Of a stretch of DNA of 64,000 bases, positions 8,481 to 38,834 are shown in pieces. The notes under the pieces are model-generated. The model saw nothing but the letters and a program-made list of their open reading frames with translations. It searched no databases and was not told where the DNA came from. Location of the stretch: the NCBI RefSeq assembly GCF_009601705.1, contig NZ_CP045687.1, positions 1,524,001 through 1,588,000 of the forward strand, given 5' to 3'. Made by a program: the position numbers and the translations under genes. Source of the stretch: Sulfolobus sp. E5-1-F (GTDB taxonomy: Archaea > Thermoproteota > Thermoprotei_A > Sulfolobales > Sulfolobaceae). The stretch's first letter is position 1. Each line of letters begins with the position of its first letter.

Positions 8481-8884
<404 letters not shown>

Positions 8885-9062
8885 TAGTAGTTTCCTGAAA
8901 ATGACGCATAGTAGATAATGTTTAGTTTTTTCAATGTAGAATTTAAGGTGTATTTATACTGTATATGCTTAGACTATTTACGATTACTTAAATCTTCTTG
9001 AAGAGAATCTATGTTAATATTTAAGGTTTAAGGAATTTGAGGTAAATTTACGTAAAGTACTA
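8885..9062 (+). mobile_element. MITE (ISC1217/SM2-like), copy A
   Basis: A 178-base non-coding element starting TAGTAGTTTCCTGAAAATGACG and ending GTAAATTTACGTAAAGTACTA. It is flanked by perfect 6-base duplications CAATTA (8879-8884 and 9063-9068). The ends form an imperfect terminal inverted repeat (TAGTAGTTTCC against TAGTACTTTAC). Two further copies lie at 27136-27308 and 38499-38678. The same ends border the complete transposase-bearing element at 37145-38288, which can probably move these copies in trans. Size and relation match the SM2 MITE/ISC1217 pair described for S. solfataricus; the name is from memory. Confidence 0.85.
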
Positions 9063-9236
9063 CAATTACTAGATTGCCAGGCCATCATAGAGTGTGGTCA
9101 ACAATTTCATGCATTTGAGATATTTGCATTTATTATCACTCACCTATCCACTAAATACACTTGAGTATAAAGAATGTTGTAGATTAGGAAGAAGGTAGAG
9201 AGCTGACTCGTTAACCTATTAGAACTCCAAGGGAAA

Positions 9237-9731
9237 TGAAAGTCCATAGAGGAGAGCCTATGCTTCAATGTCCTTGCTCAGCGTAATCCCTCCTACCAAA
9301 CCCTCCTATGCCCAACATTAAACCAGTCAAAGGCATTATAAGCTGGTAAACCATCATGCAAGTAAATCACTCGATCAATCCTCTTAAAGTACTCACTCGC
9401 AATTTCCTCAATCCCCTCATGTTAACTAGGACAATCAATACGTGAAGGCCACTCCTCAAGCCATGAAGAAGGGAATAGCCTTTGTCACAACATCCCTAAC
9501 GATCCAAACGTAATAGTAATTACCCCTAACGCAAACAACCTTAGTCTCGTCAATAGCGTAAAGACCACTCAAGGACACTACATACTTAACCCTACCAAGC
9601 CTCTTATAATAGTACAACAAGGTGGAGTGTGGTAACCTACAAGAGGATAAGCCAGCTAGATAACTCGCTAAGCCTAACGCGATCTCCTCCCTAACGTGAA
9701 ATCTTGGCTTAAGATTAATATTATACTCCAT
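9237..9731 (-). pseudogene. Decayed IS6-type transposase
   Basis: Read on the minus strand, the 5' part (9456-9731) is an intact-looking 91 residues with the first catalytic region AIDETKVVCVRGNYYYVWIVRDV. After a stop the similarity continues in shifted frames with EEIASEYFKRIDRVIYLHDG (second Asp region), LPAYNAFDWFNV, and a last block resembling the IS6 C-terminus (LSTFFLIYN). The order is that of IS6/IS240-type DDE transposases such as the small Sulfolobus ISC735/ISC774 group. At least two stops or frameshifts make it inactive. I could not define terminal repeats. Confidence 0.7.
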
Positions 9732-9892
9732 TTAGGATTAAAATAACTTGGGCTAGACGGGGATATTCCATCTGTTCATCATGTACTCACCAATAAAAAT
9801 CCCGTGCTCACCCAAAAAGGTATTACGCTAAATAAAAACAATTTACTTTTGTAATAAAAGCAACTTGTACGATTAATTTCAAATTAATTAAA

Positions 9893-10185
9893 TTGTTGAC
9901 CACACTCGCTAACTTTGTAGTCTGCGATAAGTATGTTTGGCAAGCAACTATGTATATGTTATTTGGCGGGTTGTTAATTAAGCCTGTAAGTTTGTCCATT
10001 CTCTCGATAGCAAGACGTCACGGGCCTCCATTTGTCCTTATGCTTTCATTCCATTTATTTTATGTCTATTTATGGTTAGGTGTTGGGACTTAGCACTTAA
10101 CCACCTTGTTAATGAGTCTATGGGACTCCTTCGAGCCCAACGGCATGGTACTCACATGATCATTAGCCTTACCACCTAATCAATT
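9893..10185 (-). repeat. Mobile-element remnant, homologous to 27340-27575
   Basis: The minus-strand sequence around 10100-10180 (CCGTTGGGCTCGAAGGAGTC) and 9990-10060 (AATGGAATGAAAGCATAAGG) is clearly related to plus-strand sequence at 27390-27490 (TCGTTGGGCTCGAAGAGTCC; AATGGAATGAAAGTGTAGTG). Neither copy has an intact frame. Both could be the end of a TnpB-type IS200/IS605 gene, which is a guess. The plus-strand frame of 66 codons at 9893-10093 looks like a chance opening. Confidence 0.5.
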
Positions 10186-10242
10186 CAATAAATTCCTATA
10201 TGTATCGTCTTATAGATAAAATTTAATATATATTAAAAACAG

Positions 10243-10327
10243 TGCGGGGGACGGGATTTGAACCCGTGCAGGCCTTCGCCAGCAGGGCCTAAGCCTGCCC
10301 CCTTTGACCTAGCTCGGGCACCCCCGC
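10243..10327 (-). tRNA. tRNA-Leu (anticodon TAG)
   Basis: On the minus strand: acceptor GCGGGGG/CCCCCGC, anticodon stem GCAGG/CCTGC with loop CTTAGGC (anticodon TAG), a long type II variable arm, T arm with GGTTCAAAT, discriminator A. No intron and no CCA. It closes the mobile-element pocket that tRNA-Arg opens. Confidence 0.95.
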
Positions 10328-10360
10328 GCATTATAAAATAAAAATTGAGATTTAAAAAAG

Positions 10361-10630
10361 CTAGTCCTTTACTGTCTCCAGAATAGAAACAACGTTCCAA
10401 ATGGAGATTCTAGCATGTGTGGGCATATTAGGATCTTGGCTTATATCTTCCAAAATTCCTATCGCATTTGCAGCCCTTACTGCAGGACTTAAACCAAGGT
10501 CTTGAAGATTTCTTATTGCATCAGTTGCTGCTCTTCTAATGTTTCTGGGAACGCTCGTATCATTAACTATCTTTTGTAATAAAATTACTGCTTGTTTTAT
10601 CTTAGCTTCATTGTCATAAGGCATTGACAT
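10361..10630 (-). CDS. UPF0147 family protein
   Basis: An 89-residue all-helical protein with the UPF0147 pattern: [46 protein letters not shown], then [27 protein letters not shown]. The family is widespread in archaea and its role is not known. It is divergent from the zinc-ribbon gene at 10681 with a 50-base shared promoter gap containing TTTTTAATA. Confidence 0.9.
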
Positions 10631-10680
10631 GTCAAAACACCTCTATTACTTTTTAATATTAGGGAGTTTAAGAATTATTT

Positions 10681-11037
10681 ATGACTAACGAAAGTGAGGT
10701 AGGTGTTAAGAAGGCCGCTGAACTTTTACGTCAAGGCGCTGCAATGTTAGAAGAAGCTTGTCCTATATGCAAAATGCCATTGTTTAAATTGAAAAATGGT
10801 GATGTTATTTGTCCAGTTCATGGGAAAGTGTATATAGTGAAGAGTGAAGATGAAGAGAAGATTGTAAAGCGAAATTTGCAGTTAGATGAGATAGAAAGTA
10901 TATTAATAGATGGTCTATATTTAAGCGCTAAGAAGATAAAGGATGATCCACTAGATTCTGAAAGAATAATTCAGATTATAAGGTATTTGGACGCATTAGA
11001 ACGAATAAGGAAGATTAAAGTAAATTCTTCTGAATAA
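10681..11037 (+). CDS. Autoantigen p27 / SSSCA1-type zinc-ribbon protein
   Basis: A 118-residue protein with an N-terminal helix [17 protein letters not shown] and a zinc ribbon [22 protein letters not shown] (Cys27, Cys30, Cys44, His47). This is the archaeal form of the Sjogren's syndrome/scleroderma autoantigen 1 family, whose archaeal role is unknown. The C-terminal half is helical. Its last 23 bases overlap the 3' end of the convergent tmk. Confidence 0.88.
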
Positions 11038-11587
11038 TTTTTATTGCTTGCTCTAATACTTCATTCTTATCCTTGCTAGCATCTATTATGTAGAAATTGT
11101 ATTCTTTTGCGAGTTTTAGGTATTTTTCTCTAACTTTCGCTAGACTTCTAATCTTTTCTTCGAAGTTGAATTTATCATTTTTTATTCTACTGATTGCAAC
11201 CTCAATTGGTAAGTCTAATAATATTACCATATCAGGTTTAGGGAAATAAGAATTTACCATCTTTATCCACTGTTCATCTACTCCTAGAGCTCCTTGATAA
11301 GCTATGCTGGAGAAGTAATATCTATCAAGTATTATTAGATTAGTATCATCTTGTATTTTAGATAACCAATTAATGTGTAGCGCTCGGTCTGCTGCAAAGA
11401 GTAGTACTAATAGGATTGGATCGTTCCAGCCGATTTTTTCTATTAACTTTATTATATCTTCAGAAAACGGTTCTCTCGTAACAATCACGTTCAGTTTCAT
11501 TTTAGATTCTAGATACTCCTTTAATAGATTAGCAAGTGTTGTCTTTCCTGACCCGTCTATTCCTTCAATTGCAACTAGTTTTCGCAT
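11015..11587 (-). CDS. tmk: Thymidylate kinase
   Basis: A 190-residue dTMP kinase (dTMP + ATP to dTDP). The P-loop is GIDGSGKTT at residues 8-16. The DRY motif is seen as [13 protein letters not shown], and the [11 protein letters not shown] region precedes the lid. Length is normal for the family. It overlaps the upstream Clp1-type gene by 13 bases, so tmk, the RNA kinase gene and the 177-residue gene read as one minus-strand operon. Confidence 0.93.
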
Positions 11588-12657
11588 TTTCTAAATCTAA
11601 TTCTTCTTTCCTCAAATTTATCATTTAAGCTAATATACCCTAAAACTAGTCCCGTAAACCGTTTCACCCTGCTTAGTATTGTTATTTGGTTTTCTTTTAG
11701 GTCAACTAATAGGGCGGCTCCTACGACTCTCTTATTTTCTATTATGCCTAGTAGTGCTCCTTTTAGCAGATTGGGTGATATATAATAACCTACACATGGT
11801 TTTTCGTCAGATAATTGTATATATTCTCCCCATGCATAATATAGAATATCTGATATTTGCTTTCCTAGCAAATTTTCAGATAGGGTTTTTATGGTATTTG
11901 CTTCATTAAAATATCTCTCATATTTTGCTATTCTATTTGCTTTTCTTTCAGATCTAGACTTATGCAGATTTACGCTTTTTAAAAGAATCGTTCTATTTCT
12001 ATAATTTTCGGGTAACGAATCTTTTATTTTCTGATCAAATACTATTATATAATCAGGGTCAATTGTGTATATCAGTTCGAATTTGTGTAACATGGATTTT
12101 AGTCCGGAAGTCCACCCATCAGTGTCTATTACTGTTAGTTTTTCCTTTGGAGTTGTTTCATAGAGTCTTAATATTTTTTGAACGTGCAGTCTCGGATTCG
12201 TTGAAGGTGTTATATCTCCAAAGAATTCTAGATTATTATATCCAAGTTCCTCAAGATTAAGGGTTTTTCTCATTGGTTTCAATTCTGCTATGAAGGTTGG
12301 TAGAAATAAAGTAGATTGTCCAACATCTGCATCTATAATCTTTAAGTAAGGAGTTGCTAGATTTGCGAATAGATTAGTCAAGTAAGTTTTTCCGGAATCG
12401 ACATTTCCTAGAAGTAATACTACTCCTCCTGTGTTTGTGATCTCCTCTGCTATTTCATCCCATCTCAAATTTAGATCATCAGATATTTTTTTACAATCCA
12501 TTTCTAATCTCGTATTCTCATCATAAACAAGAGTATATGTTTTATCTGATGGTATGGTTAGCAAATCGTTTTTCTGTATCTCTATTCCGAGTATTCTAGC
12601 TTCGCCCTCTAGAGCTTTTATTGTACAAGGTCCTTGTATTATTTGTTCCTTTTTCAT
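11575..12657 (-). CDS. Clp1/Grc3-type polynucleotide kinase
   Basis: A 360-residue P-loop kinase of the Clp1/Grc3/Nol9 family, which phosphorylates 5'-OH ends of RNA (and DNA) in archaea. An N-terminal beta domain (1-75) is followed by Walker A GNVDSGKTY (84-92), the family signature DADVGQS (109-115), a catalytic-base region IDTDGW near 178, and a lid rich in Arg (RSERKANRIAKYERYF). A C-terminal beta domain follows. It overlaps its neighbours on both sides by 4-13 bases, so it is translationally coupled to the 177-residue gene and tmk. Confidence 0.88.
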   Translation of the reverse strand: MKKEQIIQGPCTIKALEGEARILGIEIQKNDLLTIPSDKTYTLVYDENTRLEMDCKKISDDLNLRWDEIAEEITNTGGVVLLLGNVDSGKTYLTNLFANLATPYLKIIDADVGQSTLFLPTFIAELKPMRKTLNLEELGYNNLEFFGDITPSTNPRLHVQKILRLYETTPKEKLTVIDTDGWTSGLKSMLHKFELIYTIDPDYIIVFDQKIKDSLPENYRNRTILLKSVNLHKSRSERKANRIAKYERYFNEANTIKTLSENLLGKQISDILYYAWGEYIQLSDEKPCVGYYISPNLLKGALLGIIENKRVVGAALLVDLKENQITILSRVKRFTGLVLGYISLNDKFEERRIRFRKCEN

Positions 12658-33635: not shown

Positions 33636-33839
33636 TATATCAACTCCTATAGAGTTTTCTATGCATAACATTAAGGGTACCAGTACATCATCTACCTCAT
33701 TTTCGCAATCCTATTTTCATTTAAAGGGATCTCATTATATTTAGTACTTCCTAGAAATATTAAAGACATTAAACATAAGGTTAAACTATGAAAAAGATTA
33801 CGAATCAAGGTTTGTAAATCTCATTAACTCTTCTCGGGT
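33636..33839. other. Gene-free stretch after tRNA-Ser
   Basis: About 200 bases of AT-rich DNA with no frame of note, leading into the coding fragment on the minus strand. I see no copy of the tRNA-Ser 3' end here that would mark an integration site. Confidence 0.35.
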
Positions 33840-34022
33840 TTAAAATAGGGTTATGGCTAGGATTTGAATCTCCAATACCGTTTCAGTATATTCCAATTGA
33901 TAAAGCTTTACGTCTAAGAAGTCACCCTTTGAGAACTTCTCCAACCTCTCCTCACTTATATTCTCATCGTCTGTAACGAGGAAGAGTGCCTCTTCAATCT
34001 GTTCTCTTGTTTTAGGGTGTTG
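33840..34022 (-). pseudogene. Fragment of an unknown protein
   Basis: On the minus strand an open segment of about 60 codons ends at a TAA and reads TREQIEEALFLVTDDENISE, then RLEKFSKGDFLDVKLYQLE and ETVLEIQILAITLF. The amphipathic, Glu/Leu-rich content looks like genuine protein. There is an in-frame stop just upstream and no start codon, so this is the tail of a broken gene. Family unknown. Confidence 0.45.
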
Positions 34023-34844
34023 TCACGCTTTAACCCGAAGATTTTCCTTCATTTCTCGGTGCGACCATTTTCCCCAGATGAGGGGAGTATTACTCTCCCC
34101 AGCTAATTAACCTATATGGCGATTTAGCTCCTAGTGAGGAACAAGATTTCGGAGTACTAGACTATCTTCTTAGCTAAGACGTATAGGAAGAGATGAAAAA
34201 TAGGGACCACGTTCCCTTAAGAGCTTTAGGACAAGGACCATAACTTGTAACGTGGGAAGAGTTAGTTCTCACCCTCATCTCCTACTTCATAGTCAACTCT
34301 TGGTCATTCTCTTATCTCTTCGGAGGATCAAATTGTATGGAGTTCATAGACGAAATGACCAGCTTTTCTCGAATAAGACGAGGGAAGATACAATTTCCCC
34401 AACACTTTCCAATCTCACTTGAACTCCCCTAGCTCACTTACTTACTTCATTGGCTCATTCTTGCTTTCCCTTCATCTTTTTGTGTAATAAATTCTATATT
34501 TTTCCTCCCGTTTGACTAGGGAAAGCATTATTTTTCTCTTATTCTTGGAAAATATAATGTCTTCTGATTTAAATAAAATCAACTAGCTTTATTTTAGTAT
34601 TTTCTAGTTTATCTCGATATACAAGAAATTCCTATGCTGATGTCTTATAATGTAGTTCTTGAGAGGTATATAAGTAATTTTTTAGAAAAGAACAAGTAAG
34701 ACTCAACTTTGGTTAATAACGTTTAATAAATGTTTGTAGAAAAGAAAAGAAGGAGTTACATTTATTAAAATTCACCTTAATTTAAATGGTTTTAGGAGTT
34801 TAAAAAAAAACAAAAGTATGAAGAAAAAAGAATAGTGAGAAAAG
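34023..34844. other. Decayed or non-coding DNA upstream of the membrane cassette
   Basis: About 820 bases with all frames broken by many stops. The first 450 bases are more C-rich and could be dead coding DNA. The last 200 bases (about 34640-34844) are very A-rich with several TATA-like runs and probably hold the promoter and leader of the cassette; GTGAGAAAAG precedes the ATG at 34845. No similarity to the other repeats in the window was seen. Confidence 0.45.
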
Positions 34845-35156
34845 ATGAGAACCAATAAAGTAGAAGAAAAATCTTACAAAGATGTATTACTATCAATTGT
34901 TGCCTTAGTATTATTAGCTATAACTCCATTAGCAATGCAAGGATGGGCGGTTTTAGTAGCATTTGGGATAAGTTGGGCAGTTGCAGGCGGTGCATCTGCT
35001 GCCACACTTTTTTCGGCAGCTGGAGTATTTGGTGGGTTAGCGGGAGCAGTATTTGATGGTAGTATTACACCGCATAACGATGATTTAAACATTTTATCTT
35101 TGGTGTTGAGTGGTGTAGGAGTAGCACTTTTAGCTATTTGCATACGATTTTGTTGA
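34845..35156 (+). CDS. Small Gly/Ala-rich hydrophobic protein (candidate peptide precursor)
   Basis: A 103-residue protein. A charged N-terminus (MRTNKVEEKSYKD) is followed by a first hydrophobic helix (about 14-32), then a Trp/Gly/Ala-rich segment WAVLVAFGISWAVAGGASAA and LFSAAGVFGGLAGAVF (34-70). A polar loop DGSITPHNDD comes next, then a last hydrophobic helix (82-100) ending RFC. It is 12 bases upstream of an M48-type membrane protease and clearly in the same operon. Small, Gly/Ala-rich hydrophobic products beside a SpoIIM/DUF95 gene recall circular-bacteriocin precursors; that is an inference. A holin-like or plain membrane protein is the alternative. Confidence 0.7.
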   Translation: MRTNKVEEKSYKDVLLSIVALVLLAITPLAMQGWAVLVAFGISWAVAGGASAATLFSAAGVFGGLAGAVFDGSITPHNDDLNILSLVLSGVGVALLAICIRFC

Positions 35157-35168
35157 GGAGATAGGAGT

Positions 35169-36629
35169 ATGAAGGGAAGTAAGAGGCATATAAGTTATGT
35201 AATTTTTTTGGTTTTATCTTATCTTTTGTTTTTAATATCCTATTTACCTCATATAGTATGGAAACAATATTCCTATATATCGATAATTTTCGTTTACGCA
35301 GGTACTGTAGCATTAGGATTAGCAATTGGATTATTTCTCTACTCGATAATCGCAATCTTTAGGGAAAAGAATACTGAAGCTAGATTACAAATATCAAAAA
35401 ATCCCCTTAACTCCTCACAGTCTAACACTAAATCTCTACTTCCTTTAATGAGACTACTTATGTTAGAATCCTTTTCTATCTCTACGACAGTTCCTATTAT
35501 CGCACTGCTAGTTTTCTTATACTTTATAAAAGTACTGCACGTAACCACGATTACCCTCATGGATATGGCTATTTTAATTACGCTTACTTTCTTTTTTGAA
35601 ACCTTAATAGCAACTATACTGTTTCCTAGAATTGGATTGTATAAGGGTATGAGAGCAGGGGAGATTAAAATTATAGAATTACCAAATGTTGCTGGTGGTA
35701 TTACGAGTGAAGTCCTTACATTGTCTCGTAACTCATTCTTCAAAACTATTATCTTCGTTGGTGAAGGAAACCCAAATTCCTCTATCGAGACTGTAAAGAC
35801 CCATGAATTAGGTCATGCTAGAGAGCATCATGGTATCTTTCTTGAGTTAATATTATTGTTCCTTTTTTCTATGATATACGATTTGATTTGGTTTATAGTG
35901 TATAATGTATTCTTTTTTCAAAATATTATTCACATTAGTCTAGCTCTTATCATTAAGATGGTGCTTATTACAATTAGCATATCCATTATAGTTCTTCTCT
36001 TACATCGAGTTTTGGAATCTAGGGCTGATGCTTTTACTTTCAGAAATATAGGTGAAAGAGCATATAATGATCTGATCAATACGCTCCAAGCAATGTATGG
36101 AGTAACGTCTACTGAAGATGCACCATTATGGAGTAGGCTTACTCATACTTCGTCTAGGAGTGCTCTGAAGACAGGAGATGCTCTCTCTTCATTAAACATT
36201 TGGGAGTTTCCCGTGGTTTTGTCCTTAATTGAATCTACCATATTAATGATTCCGTTTACTTCTTCTAAGGTAATAGGATTTTTGTTCCCGTTATCCTACG
36301 TAGGCTTTCTAGTTATAACATTCTTGTTAGGGACTATCTTCTTCCCAATATTGAAAGGATACTATGGGAAAACGACAAAAGGGGGAAGGAACTTCTCGTT
36401 TCTCTTGGCTGGAATTTATGTATTCATGAGTGAATGTGAATTATTAAGTTTTCCTAACATGTACCTAGTAATCCTTCAGTTCGTCCTTTGGGCAATATTT
36501 GCATTCTTAGTCATCAAAGTCTTCATAAAAAGTAAGCCTATTAAGGTGTTCTTGATCACGTTGTTTACATACTTAGGTATTAACGCTTTGGTTGGTACTA
36601 TTTGGATCGTTCTCCATCACGGTGTTTAA
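35169..36629 (+). CDS. Multi-span membrane metalloprotease, M48 type
   Basis: A 486-residue integral membrane protein with about ten membrane segments: two at the N-terminus (9-30, 37-62), two near 107-151, two after the active site, and four or five in the last 150 residues. The zinc site is HELGH at 212-216 (THELGHAREHHG), with a third ligand in VLESRADAFTFRNIGE (Glu283, then Asp287), the M48 (HtpX/Ste24) arrangement. The long C-terminal membrane region is not typical of HtpX. It probably cuts the upstream small protein or another membrane substrate. Spacing is 12 bases to the gene before and 1 base to the gene after. Confidence 0.82.
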   Translation: MKGSKRHISYVIFLVLSYLLFLISYLPHIVWKQYSYISIIFVYAGTVALGLAIGLFLYSIIAIFREKNTEARLQISKNPLNSSQSNTKSLLPLMRLLMLESFSISTTVPIIALLVFLYFIKVLHVTTITLMDMAILITLTFFFETLIATILFPRIGLYKGMRAGEIKIIELPNVAGGITSEVLTLSRNSFFKTIIFVGEGNPNSSIETVKTHELGHAREHHGIFLELILLFLFSMIYDLIWFIVYNVFFFQNIIHISLALIIKMVLITISISIIVLLLHRVLESRADAFTFRNIGERAYNDLINTLQAMYGVTSTEDAPLWSRLTHTSSRSALKTGDALSSLNIWEFPVVLSLIESTILMIPFTSSKVIGFLFPLSYVGFLVITFLLGTIFFPILKGYYGKTTKGGRNFSFLLAGIYVFMSECELLSFPNMYLVILQFVLWAIFAFLVIKVFIKSKPIKVFLITLFTYLGINALVGTIWIVLHHGV

Positions 36630-36630
36630 G

Positions 36631-37021
36631 ATGGTAGATAAAGTTGGCTGGAGGAAGATTCTGGGCATATATTTCGTCTTCTGGCTCGGACTTTTTGGTG
36701 GCGCCATATGGGATTATTTCTCAAGTTTTTAAAGCCGGAGTCCCGCGTGAACTCCCCATACCCAACTACTGGCTTTTCTTGAAGATAATAGTGGTTAACT
36801 TCACGTTTTCCATTATTATCTTCTTACTAGGTCATGATGTGATAATTCAGAGAATAGTGATTATTTTAGTTATATCTTTTGTTGTAGGTAGAATAGAATT
36901 TGCTACTGGTTTGCTTATAGGGTTAATTGGTACTCTTCCCCATGAAATCCTTGAACTCTTAGCATTTAGTTTCATGCTTATGCTGGACAAAATTATAGAT
37001 CTACCAACAGCTCTTGCTTAA
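36631..37021 (+). pseudogene. SpoIIM/DUF95-like membrane protein, split by a one-base frameshift
   Basis: The ATG at 36631 starts MVDKVGWRKILGIYFVFWLG (a first membrane helix) and stops at 36730-36732. The reading then continues one frame over with KAGVPRELPIPNYWLFLKII, further hydrophobic helices and the block GLIGTLPHEILELLAFSFM, which resembles the conserved LLPHG-x-ELPA motif of SpoIIM/DUF95. Removing one T from the T5 run at 36726-36730 joins both parts into about 129 residues. It is 1 base after the protease gene. It may be a pseudogene, a sequencing error or a slippage site. The alternative ATG at 36644 in the second frame gives an unlikely N-terminus. Confidence 0.65.
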
Positions 37022-37144
37022 AGTTATTGATAGTTGGACTATTAATGATCGTATATACAGCTTTCATAGAATCGTCGCTTACAATTTATATTCTTCAACA
37101 TTTCTATGGAGTTCTAAGTTCCTGGTCATGAATCAGTTTCCATT

Positions 37145-38288
37145 TAGTAGTTTCCTGAAAATGACGTCAATTTGAAATACCTTAAAAACTTTTTAGGATG
37201 ATAATACCAAGACTAAACAATGAAAATAACGAGTCTCTTCAACAGGGGATTTGCAAAGGTAAGGAAGTACCTAGAGAAAGTGAAGAAGACGCTAGGCAGT
37301 AAATCCCTAGTGAAGTTACTGGGTGCATCTCTGATCGAGGATGGATCAATGAGGGCCAAGTGCACCACGGCTGGAATTGACTACGAATACGCCTTGAGGA
37401 AGTTAGAGGAGGTCGCTAAGGTCGATCTAATCGAAGTAGTGAAGGAATTAGTAGGGGAACACAAGGTCCAGCTCTCAATAGACGACACACTAAACGAGAA
37501 ATACTACGCTGAAGCCGCGTGGGTCTCAGCTCACATGACCCAATTCTTCTACTCCAGGAAGGATAAAACCTACATCCCAGCACACCAAATCCTTGTAGCC
37601 ACAATAAGGGACTTGGAAACCAACGAGGTCTACTTGATCCACCTCGAGATCTACCTACCACAAAAAGTCGTGAATATCTTGAAACAAGAAGGGAAGCCAG
37701 TCCAGTTCAGAACGAAGATCGAAATCGCAATTGAGCTGATAGAGAAAGTGAGGAGGAGGCTTAACGTTAGTTCAATAGCGTTCGATTCGTGGTACGTGAA
37801 CAGGAGAACTCTTCTGCCCGGTGTTGTTTCGGAACTTAAGGCGAGCGCGCGGGTTACCGAGGGAGGTAGATCCGTGCCGGTCGCCGAGTTCCCCGAGGGA
37901 GAGTTCTCCGTCACGTACCTCGGCGTTCCTATTAAATTAATTGTAGTTAATAATTATAAAGGTTGCGGGAGGAGGTACTTCTTCACGACCGACCTAACCA
38001 TGACCTCTGAGGAGGTAATAACGACTTGGGAGAATAGGTGGGATGTTGAAACTGTGATAAGGGATTTGAAGGTCCTAGGCCTTAGGAGCAGTTCGTTCAA
38101 GAGCGTAGTCAAGATCCTCGGATACATGAAGCTTGTTGGACTAGTCGTGAACTTCCTCCACATCTTGAAGTATGAGCTCGGTTCCCACCTTGGTGTAAAG
38201 GCTCTCTCAAGGTACTTGAAAAACGTTTATGGATACTTCCTTGACTATAAGAAACTATTCAGACTACGATAAAATCTATAAAGTACTA
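37145..38288 (+). mobile_element. Complete insertion sequence, ISC1217-like, 1,144 bp
   Basis: Left end TAGTAGTTTCCTGAAAATGACG, right end TCTATAAAGTACTA, forming an imperfect terminal inverted repeat. The element is flanked by a perfect 6-base duplication TCCATT (37139-37144 and 38289-38294) and carries one intact transposase gene. The ends are shared with three MITEs in this window, so this copy probably mobilises them. The intact duplication and gene indicate a recent insertion. The ISC1217 name is from memory of size class and MITE relation. Confidence 0.88.
37220..38272 (+). CDS. DDE transposase (IS4/ISH3-like superfamily)
   Basis: A 350-residue transposase. Catalytic residues: Asp88/89 in LSIDDTLNEKYY, Asp189 in SIAFDSWYVNRR, and Glu277 in WENRWDVETVIRDLKVLGLR, which has the W..RW..E spacing of IS4-type enzymes. 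The N-terminus is basic and helical (DNA binding). Its codon use is richer in G and C than that of the flanking host genes (for example many CTC, GTC, GAG), consistent with foreign origin. Intact and probably active. Confidence 0.9.
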   Translation: MKITSLFNRGFAKVRKYLEKVKKTLGSKSLVKLLGASLIEDGSMRAKCTTAGIDYEYALRKLEEVAKVDLIEVVKELVGEHKVQLSIDDTLNEKYYAEAAWVSAHMTQFFYSRKDKTYIPAHQILVATIRDLETNEVYLIHLEIYLPQKVVNILKQEGKPVQFRTKIEIAIELIEKVRRRLNVSSIAFDSWYVNRRTLLPGVVSELKASARVTEGGRSVPVAEFPEGEFSVTYLGVPIKLIVVNNYKGCGRRYFFTTDLTMTSEEVITTWENRWDVETVIRDLKVLGLRSSSFKSVVKILGYMKLVGLVVNFLHILKYELGSHLGVKALSRYLKNVYGYFLDYKKLFRLR

Positions 38289-38498
38289 TCCATTCATTAA
38301 ATCTACTAAATTTTCCTTCTAGTAAAATACAAGTTCACCGTATTTTTCGTGCTATCACAGAATTTTTGCCGTCTTCTTTCAATTTAATGCTCTTTAACGA
38401 CAAAATTAACATCTGTCAACTACCTTTAAATCTGTTTTCGTAATCATAATACTATGCGTAAAAATAGCTAAAGATGAGATTTGTTATAAACATCACTA
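38289..38498. other. Gap between the IS and MITE copy C
   Basis: About 200 AT-rich bases from the right TSD of the IS to the left TSD (TCACTA, 38493-38498) of the MITE. No frame or motif recognised. Confidence 0.35.
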
Positions 38499-38678
38499 TA
38501 GTAGTTTCCTGAAAATGACGTATAATATATATCACGTTTAATTTTTCCAATGTAACATTTAAGGCGAATTTACACTATATACACTTGATGTATTTACGAT
38601 TATTTAAATCTTCTTGAAGAGAATCTATGTTAGTATTTAAGGTTTAAGGGATTTGATGTAAATTTACGTAAAGTACTA
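38499..38678 (+). mobile_element. MITE (ISC1217/SM2-like), copy C
   Basis: A 180-base element with the same ends as the complete IS 210 bases upstream and a perfect 6-base duplication TCACTA (38493-38498 and 38679-38684). It is very close to copy B in its left half and to copy A in its right half. From here to the tRNA at 38835 I see no gene. Confidence 0.88.
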
Positions 38679-38834
38679 TCACTACATAATTTCACGATAG
38701 ATTTAAGGTTGATATTACGTCCATAAATTAGAAACGGTGAACAATGCAATAAAGAAAACTTACCTCGGATCTTTAACTAAAGTTGTAGAATAGAAGTTTA
38801 CACAAAATTGAAAGAAAGTGGGATTATGTCATTA

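Follow-up and report, generated by a model that had tools for sequence, protein, structure and literature searches.

A precursor-like small protein, a membrane M48 protease and a SpoIIM-like protein encoded by a recurrent archaeal gene trio, with a probably decaying copy in a Sulfolobaceae genome

Results

Gene content of the accessory insert

The 64,000-nucleotide stretch of DNA analysed here (the window) corresponds to positions 1524001-1588000 of the 2.54 Mb, single-contig genome of a member of the Sulfolobaceae. It carries a 5 kb accessory insert (Table 1) which is set among IS remnants and is absent from all three of the congeners compared (G001, G002 and G006). In blastn comparisons with these genomes of the same genus, homology ends at about position 33658 and is back at 38834; where the insert stands, they have a gap of only ~330 bp, and their DNA from speE to tRNA-Met(CAT) measures only ~0.5 kb. 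The preliminary description had placed the genes in an accessory island between two tRNA genes: the island is genuine, and the comparisons with the three congeners correct its borders to speE and tRNA-Met(CAT). In order, the insert contains degraded dispersed repeats, a trio of genes and an ISC1217-type element, of which ten near-identical copies occur across the genome. The part upstream of the trio (33660-34840) is without convincing genes, and its degraded repeats are common to several genomes of the genus. One end of the ISC1217-type element recurs as a 23-nt copy at 38499-38521.

Table 1. Features of the insert, in coordinates of the window
Feature	Position	Strand	Basis
Accessory insert, between speE and tRNA-Met(CAT)	33659..38833	.	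blastn
Putative membrane-active peptide precursor, 103 aa	34845..35156	+	ORF
Leader of the small protein, ~residues 1-28, ending in ...LLAITP	34845-34928	+	comparison with relatives
Membrane M48-family zinc protease, 486 aa	35169..36629	+	PF01435, invariant catalytic residues
HELGH zinc-binding/catalytic motif, residues 212-216	35802..35816	+	sequence, alignments
ESRAD motif, residues 283-287	36015..36029	+	sequence, alignments
SpoIIM/DUF95-like gene, broken	36631..37131	+	tblastn frames +3/+1/+3, profile pieces
IS element, ISC1217 type, 1145 bp (transposase ORF 37220-38272)	37145..38289	+	PF04693, E=1.2e-98

The first two genes are as they had been described, namely an open reading frame for a small Gly/Ala/Trp-rich protein and, 12 bases further on, one for a protein with HELGH and ESRAD motifs; the reported gap of a single base before the third gene also holds, its ATG at 36631 lying one base past the M48 stop. 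In the small protein of the window the core (~residues 29-103) has a GRAVY of 1.30 and 33% Gly+Ala, and the Gly-rich C-terminus of its relatives is replaced by ICIRFC. The M48 assignment of the second protein, for which a profile search had been proposed, was upheld by a PF01435 match of 21.2 bits, just over the cut-off of 20.3; a relative from Candidatus Brockarchaeota (locus L073) reaches 64.7 bits. Alignments show that H212, E213, H216, E283, A286 and D287 are invariant in the relatives from Sulfolobaceae, Vulcanisaeta and Brockarchaeota, and we take ESRAD, from what is known of the M48 family, to provide the third zinc ligand. The AlphaFold single-sequence model of the small protein (pLDDT 65, pTM 0.31) is too weak for recognition of a saposin-like or other helix bundle or for a fold search, as is the model of the protease (pLDDT 43) for a fold search.

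The third gene had been read as open at 36644-37021. That frame is in fact only the middle piece of a SpoIIM/DUF95-like gene, and 37021 is an out-of-frame end. One base shift near 36727 and a second near 36973, each of a single base, disrupt the gene and compensate each other: the frame that starts at ATG 36631 (MVDKVGWRKILGIYFVFWLGLFGG...) hits a stop at 36729-36731, the middle block with GTLPHEILELLAF (LPHEILELLAF) requires a move to the next frame, and for the C-terminus (AYAGQNYRS...AFIESSLTIYILQH) the reading returns to the first one. Searches by tblastn with intact homologues, which are 152-172 residues long, follow the gene through frames +3/+1/+3 from 36631 to ~37131, and a profile search recovers it in three pieces covering profile positions 1-36, 30-129 and 110-159. 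The SpoIIM relatives reach the PF01944 cut-off and have a conserved PHG..E and a C-terminal Glu; the conserved PHG is PHE in the window (Gly to Glu). The PF01944 search suggested earlier gave a divided answer, as the intact relative L012 scored 30.9 bits, over the cut-off of 26.9, and the fragment from the window scored 20.6, under it. The window row in our SpoIIM alignment was joined by hand across the frames and serves for comparison only.

Because its SpoIIM gene is frameshifted, the copy in the window is, to judge from the sequence, probably decaying or dead and the system probably inactive there. Alternatively, both frameshifts could be sequencing errors and this one copy intact and functional. 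The shifts involve single bases, one of them within a run of T, and the SpoIIM protein is well conserved on either side of them. We nevertheless consider this rather doubtful, as it needs two errors within ~250 bp of a single-contig genome and the locus has IS remnants all round. Decay is also made the likelier by the Glu that replaces the Gly of PHG and by the ICIRFC that the small protein has in place of a Gly-rich C-terminus.

Distribution of the trio in Archaea

A sequence search with the small protein as query matched no other genome, because its core is hypervariable, and relatives of the trio were located via searches with M48 and SpoIIM. M48 relatives turned up in five of the 98 genomes searched, a count that takes in the genome of the window, and all five are from Sulfolobaceae; when the search was widened to 229 genomes, the same five were recovered together with weak matches. 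SpoIIM-based searches reached further sets in Vulcanisaeta, which belongs to another order. At the related loci a Gly/Ala-rich protein of 105-113 residues is followed by M48 and then, mostly, by SpoIIM, the genes overlapping or lying a few bases apart. The order and strand are the same, and all three genes are open, at eight loci: L012, L013, L014, L016 and L017 in Sulfolobaceae, and L099, L138 and L141 in Vulcanisaeta. Five sets are broken or partial (L015, L018, L098, L139 and L140), with M48 in pieces in the Vulcanisaeta loci L098, L139 and L140. Dead copies turn up often, with L018, L075 and L076 and the remnant at G018:C1:1134073. A lack of co-occurrence of the three families in other genomes had been named in advance as one result that would refute the original proposal; the proposal passed this test, since several genera from two orders have the trio in the same gene order.

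Two loci depart from this arrangement. In L142, from Thermoproteaceae, M48 and SpoIIM are present and the small gene is uncertain. In L073 the M48+SpoIIM pair adjoins genes for an ABC ATPase and an ABC permease, and no small precursor was recognised at this locus. The L073 region (8582-12197) encodes the ABC ATPase, the ABC permease and a 578-aa secreted protein, followed by the pair, and its linked transporter is reminiscent of bacterial circular-bacteriocin clusters. Neither an ABC transporter nor a separate immunity gene was found beside the trios in the operons of Sulfolobaceae and Vulcanisaeta.

The trio genes were not found in the phage records, plasmid records and viral contigs searched; PADLOC gave no match, and the trio proteins had none in PHROGs. 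In most Sulfolobaceae genomes a further SpoIIM gene lies outside the trio (e.g. L042, L078). Two such genes (L078 5289-5909 and L079 4665-5348) are syntenic near Elp3- and Lsm-type genes, in a context unrelated to the trio.

Leader and core of the small protein

Among paralogues and syntenic orthologues the leader of the small protein, with a conserved Pro at its end, keeps 76-100% identity, and identity of the core goes down to 33-43%. Two copies of the trio in one genome, L015 and L016, share 85% of the amino acids and 92% of the nucleotides of the leader, against 39 and 51%, respectively, for the rest of the protein. In a sliding comparison of the two copies the drop in identity begins past the leader, and the C-terminal half of M48 and the start of SpoIIM are 100% identical. 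The syntenic Vulcanisaeta loci behave similarly: between L139 or L141 and L140 the leader is 76% and the core 33-42% identical, compared with 71-72% for SpoIIM and 70-85% for the flanking proteins. These patterns indicate that the core is the fast part of the protein, independently in two orders.

The composition of the core is also distinctive. In all six of the Sulfolobaceae relatives, counted apart from the window, its Gly+Ala content is 27-42%, Lys and Arg are absent altogether, and its GRAVY is 1.16-1.61. Among background hydrophobic 75-mers, none of 124 combined at least 27% Gly+Ala with the absence of Lys and Arg. A conserved leader joined to a hypervariable core is expected of bacteriocin/RiPP-type precursors, and it is found here in two orders of archaea. 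In its pattern of sequence change, the small protein thus looks like a peptide precursor.

Sibling cassettes

A different genus of Sulfolobaceae has, in two of its genomes, sibling cassettes beside the trio (L016 29-334 and 770-3475; L017 19-3763; L093 2953-8593; L094 5082-9864; L095 4120-6681; L096 4638-10004). No further members of this cassette family were found among 229 genomes. Each sibling small protein (101-133 aa) is accompanied by two or three further membrane proteins, of 349-420, 137-165 and 206-228 aa, which belong to no Pfam family. By eye the large partner, at lengths of 350-394 aa, had been suspected of similarity to M48, which was rejected at an hhalign probability of <1%; comparison of the 139-142 aa partner with SpoIIM gave P values of 0.016-0.036, at which a relation is unproven.

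The sibling leaders are of two types, MITTVV...LVA(I/V)PINSIMLTQAI and MSQQITIK...LLVPLE. Sibling small proteins can have leaders that are 98-100% identical at the DNA level and rests that are 43-58% identical. The reverse is seen between L093 5186-5521 and L095 6361-6681, in which the core is common (79% aa, 83% DNA) and the leaders differ (47% aa, 59% DNA), an apparent natural leader swap as far as the two sequences tell. Such modular exchange of leaders and cores strengthens the view that the small proteins are precursors.

Discussion

We lean towards the view that the trio encodes a bacteriocin-type precursor which M48 matures and for which SpoIIM provides export or resistance. The positively charged leader would anchor the precursor with its N-terminus inside, as its charge suggests, via a hydrophobic helix ending in the conserved Pro. 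The co-encoded zinc protease, whose linkage to the precursor is invariant, would then remove the leader at or just after this helix. The freed core, Gly/Ala-rich and devoid of Lys and Arg, perhaps closed head-to-tail first, would insert into the membranes of competing archaea and might kill them, and its sequence would change fast so as to escape or match resistance. SpoIIM would take part in export and/or self-protection, as in circular-bacteriocin clusters.

The combination of a conserved leader and a hypervariable core, together with the uncharged Gly/Ala composition of the latter, supports a membrane-active precursor, and the presence of SpoIIM in published circular-bacteriocin clusters, and of M48 in a few of them, points to a bacteriocin. 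Other observations argue against it: the want of an ABC transporter or immunity gene in the Sulfolobaceae and Vulcanisaeta operons and of any match to a bacteriocin family, the weak structure models, the Brockarchaeota locus without a small precursor, the broken copy in the window and a hypervariability that a surface or signalling protein could show as well. The initial proposal of a system that matures, secretes or gives immunity to a membrane-active peptide is partly sustained for the family, by the trio itself, the leader and core, and the composition; it probably does not hold for the frameshifted copy from which it was drawn.

SpoIIM/DUF95 had been linked with circular-bacteriocin loci, and the literature agrees, as all published clusters carry SpoIIM (PMC6131525). 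M48 peptidases were reported in two group-1 circular-bacteriocin clusters in a genome-mining study (PMC8659200). The trio resembles these clusters in its SpoIIM/DUF95 gene and its leadered small precursor, and the resemblance is closest to group ii (gassericin A/acidocin B type), whose members are very hydrophobic and have a low pI (PMC6131525), just as the core of the trio is very hydrophobic and poor in basic residues. It differs from them in being archaeal, in having M48 directly downstream of the precursor at every precursor locus rather than rarely and, at most loci, in having no ABC transporter or immunity gene; an ABC ATPase and permease adjoin only the Brockarchaeota locus. None of the small proteins tested matched a bacteriocin family in Pfam or NCBIfam. 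Since it is without the transporter and without sequence homology, we do not file the trio as a member of the circular bacteriocins, although by analogy it may work like one. For circular bacteriocins, neither the leader peptidase nor the cyclase has been identified (PMC8659200, PMC6131525). It is a tentative and rather improbable extension of our view that the trio represents archaeal circular-type bacteriocins and that its M48 is the leader peptidase, possibly also the ligase, which has escaped identification in the bacterial ones.

The small protein could instead be a hypervariable peptide with a role at the surface, in recognition or in signalling that M48 and SpoIIM process and put in place, serving for example to evade virus adsorption or to mark kin, with no killing involved. 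A conserved leader, a variable core and modular leader swaps would look alike in that case, and archaeal SpoIIM homologues have been linked to membrane remodelling (PMC5898192). However, a core that is almost wholly hydrophobic and without Lys or Arg is unlike an exposed recognition domain, and SpoIIM, sometimes with an M48 peptidase, is common to circular-bacteriocin clusters; we regard such a role as unlikely.

A toxin/immunity module, in which the small protein is toxic to the membrane of its own cell, M48 and/or SpoIIM destroy it or hold it, and the genes are kept by addiction, would account for a tight operon without a transporter, for the patchy distribution and dead copies, and for the divergence of parts of the M48 gene along with the core in L015, L016 and L017. 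Conservation of the leader apart from the core would, however, be unexpected in a simple intracellular toxin, the sibling cassettes have several precursors stacked side by side, and we find this explanation quite unlikely. Membrane quality control or stress proteolysis of the HtpX kind, with the small protein as a regulator, is a common role of M48 membrane proteases, but this already disfavoured explanation is made very improbable by the accessory and patchy occurrence (5/98 genomes), the hypervariable partner and the invariant SpoIIM partner.

Sulfolobicins SulA and SulB are antimicrobial proteins of Sulfolobales. The trio would be set apart from them, as they are larger secreted proteins that are not known to have M48 or SpoIIM partners. 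The M48 of the trio shares the HExxH...ExxAD core (PF01435) with HtpX/Ste24-type proteases, from which it differs in a long extra multi-span C-terminal region, in its accessory operon and in being very divergent. Archaeal SpoIIM proteins of arCOG01994 and arCOG01996 are PF01944 membrane proteins, the latter frequent in archaeal dark-matter islands, and in the sections of the two papers dealing with them no M48 or small precursor is named as a partner (PMC5898192, PMC4158269). A full-text literature search yielded no description of the archaeal trio, an earlier mention being possible in a survey of archaeal conflict systems published in mBio in 2019. The family is apparently new, and such a weapon system apparently undescribed in these archaea.

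Follow-up is merited at the intact loci rather than in the strain of the window. As a minimal operon that keeps a precursor together with a single membrane protease and SpoIIM, the trio offers a direct two-protein test of the leader peptidase and cyclase question. If our preferred reading of a bacteriocin-type precursor is true, hyperthermophilic acidophiles would have in the trio a peptide-weapon family that is new and whose leader-core swapping is visible in natural genomes.
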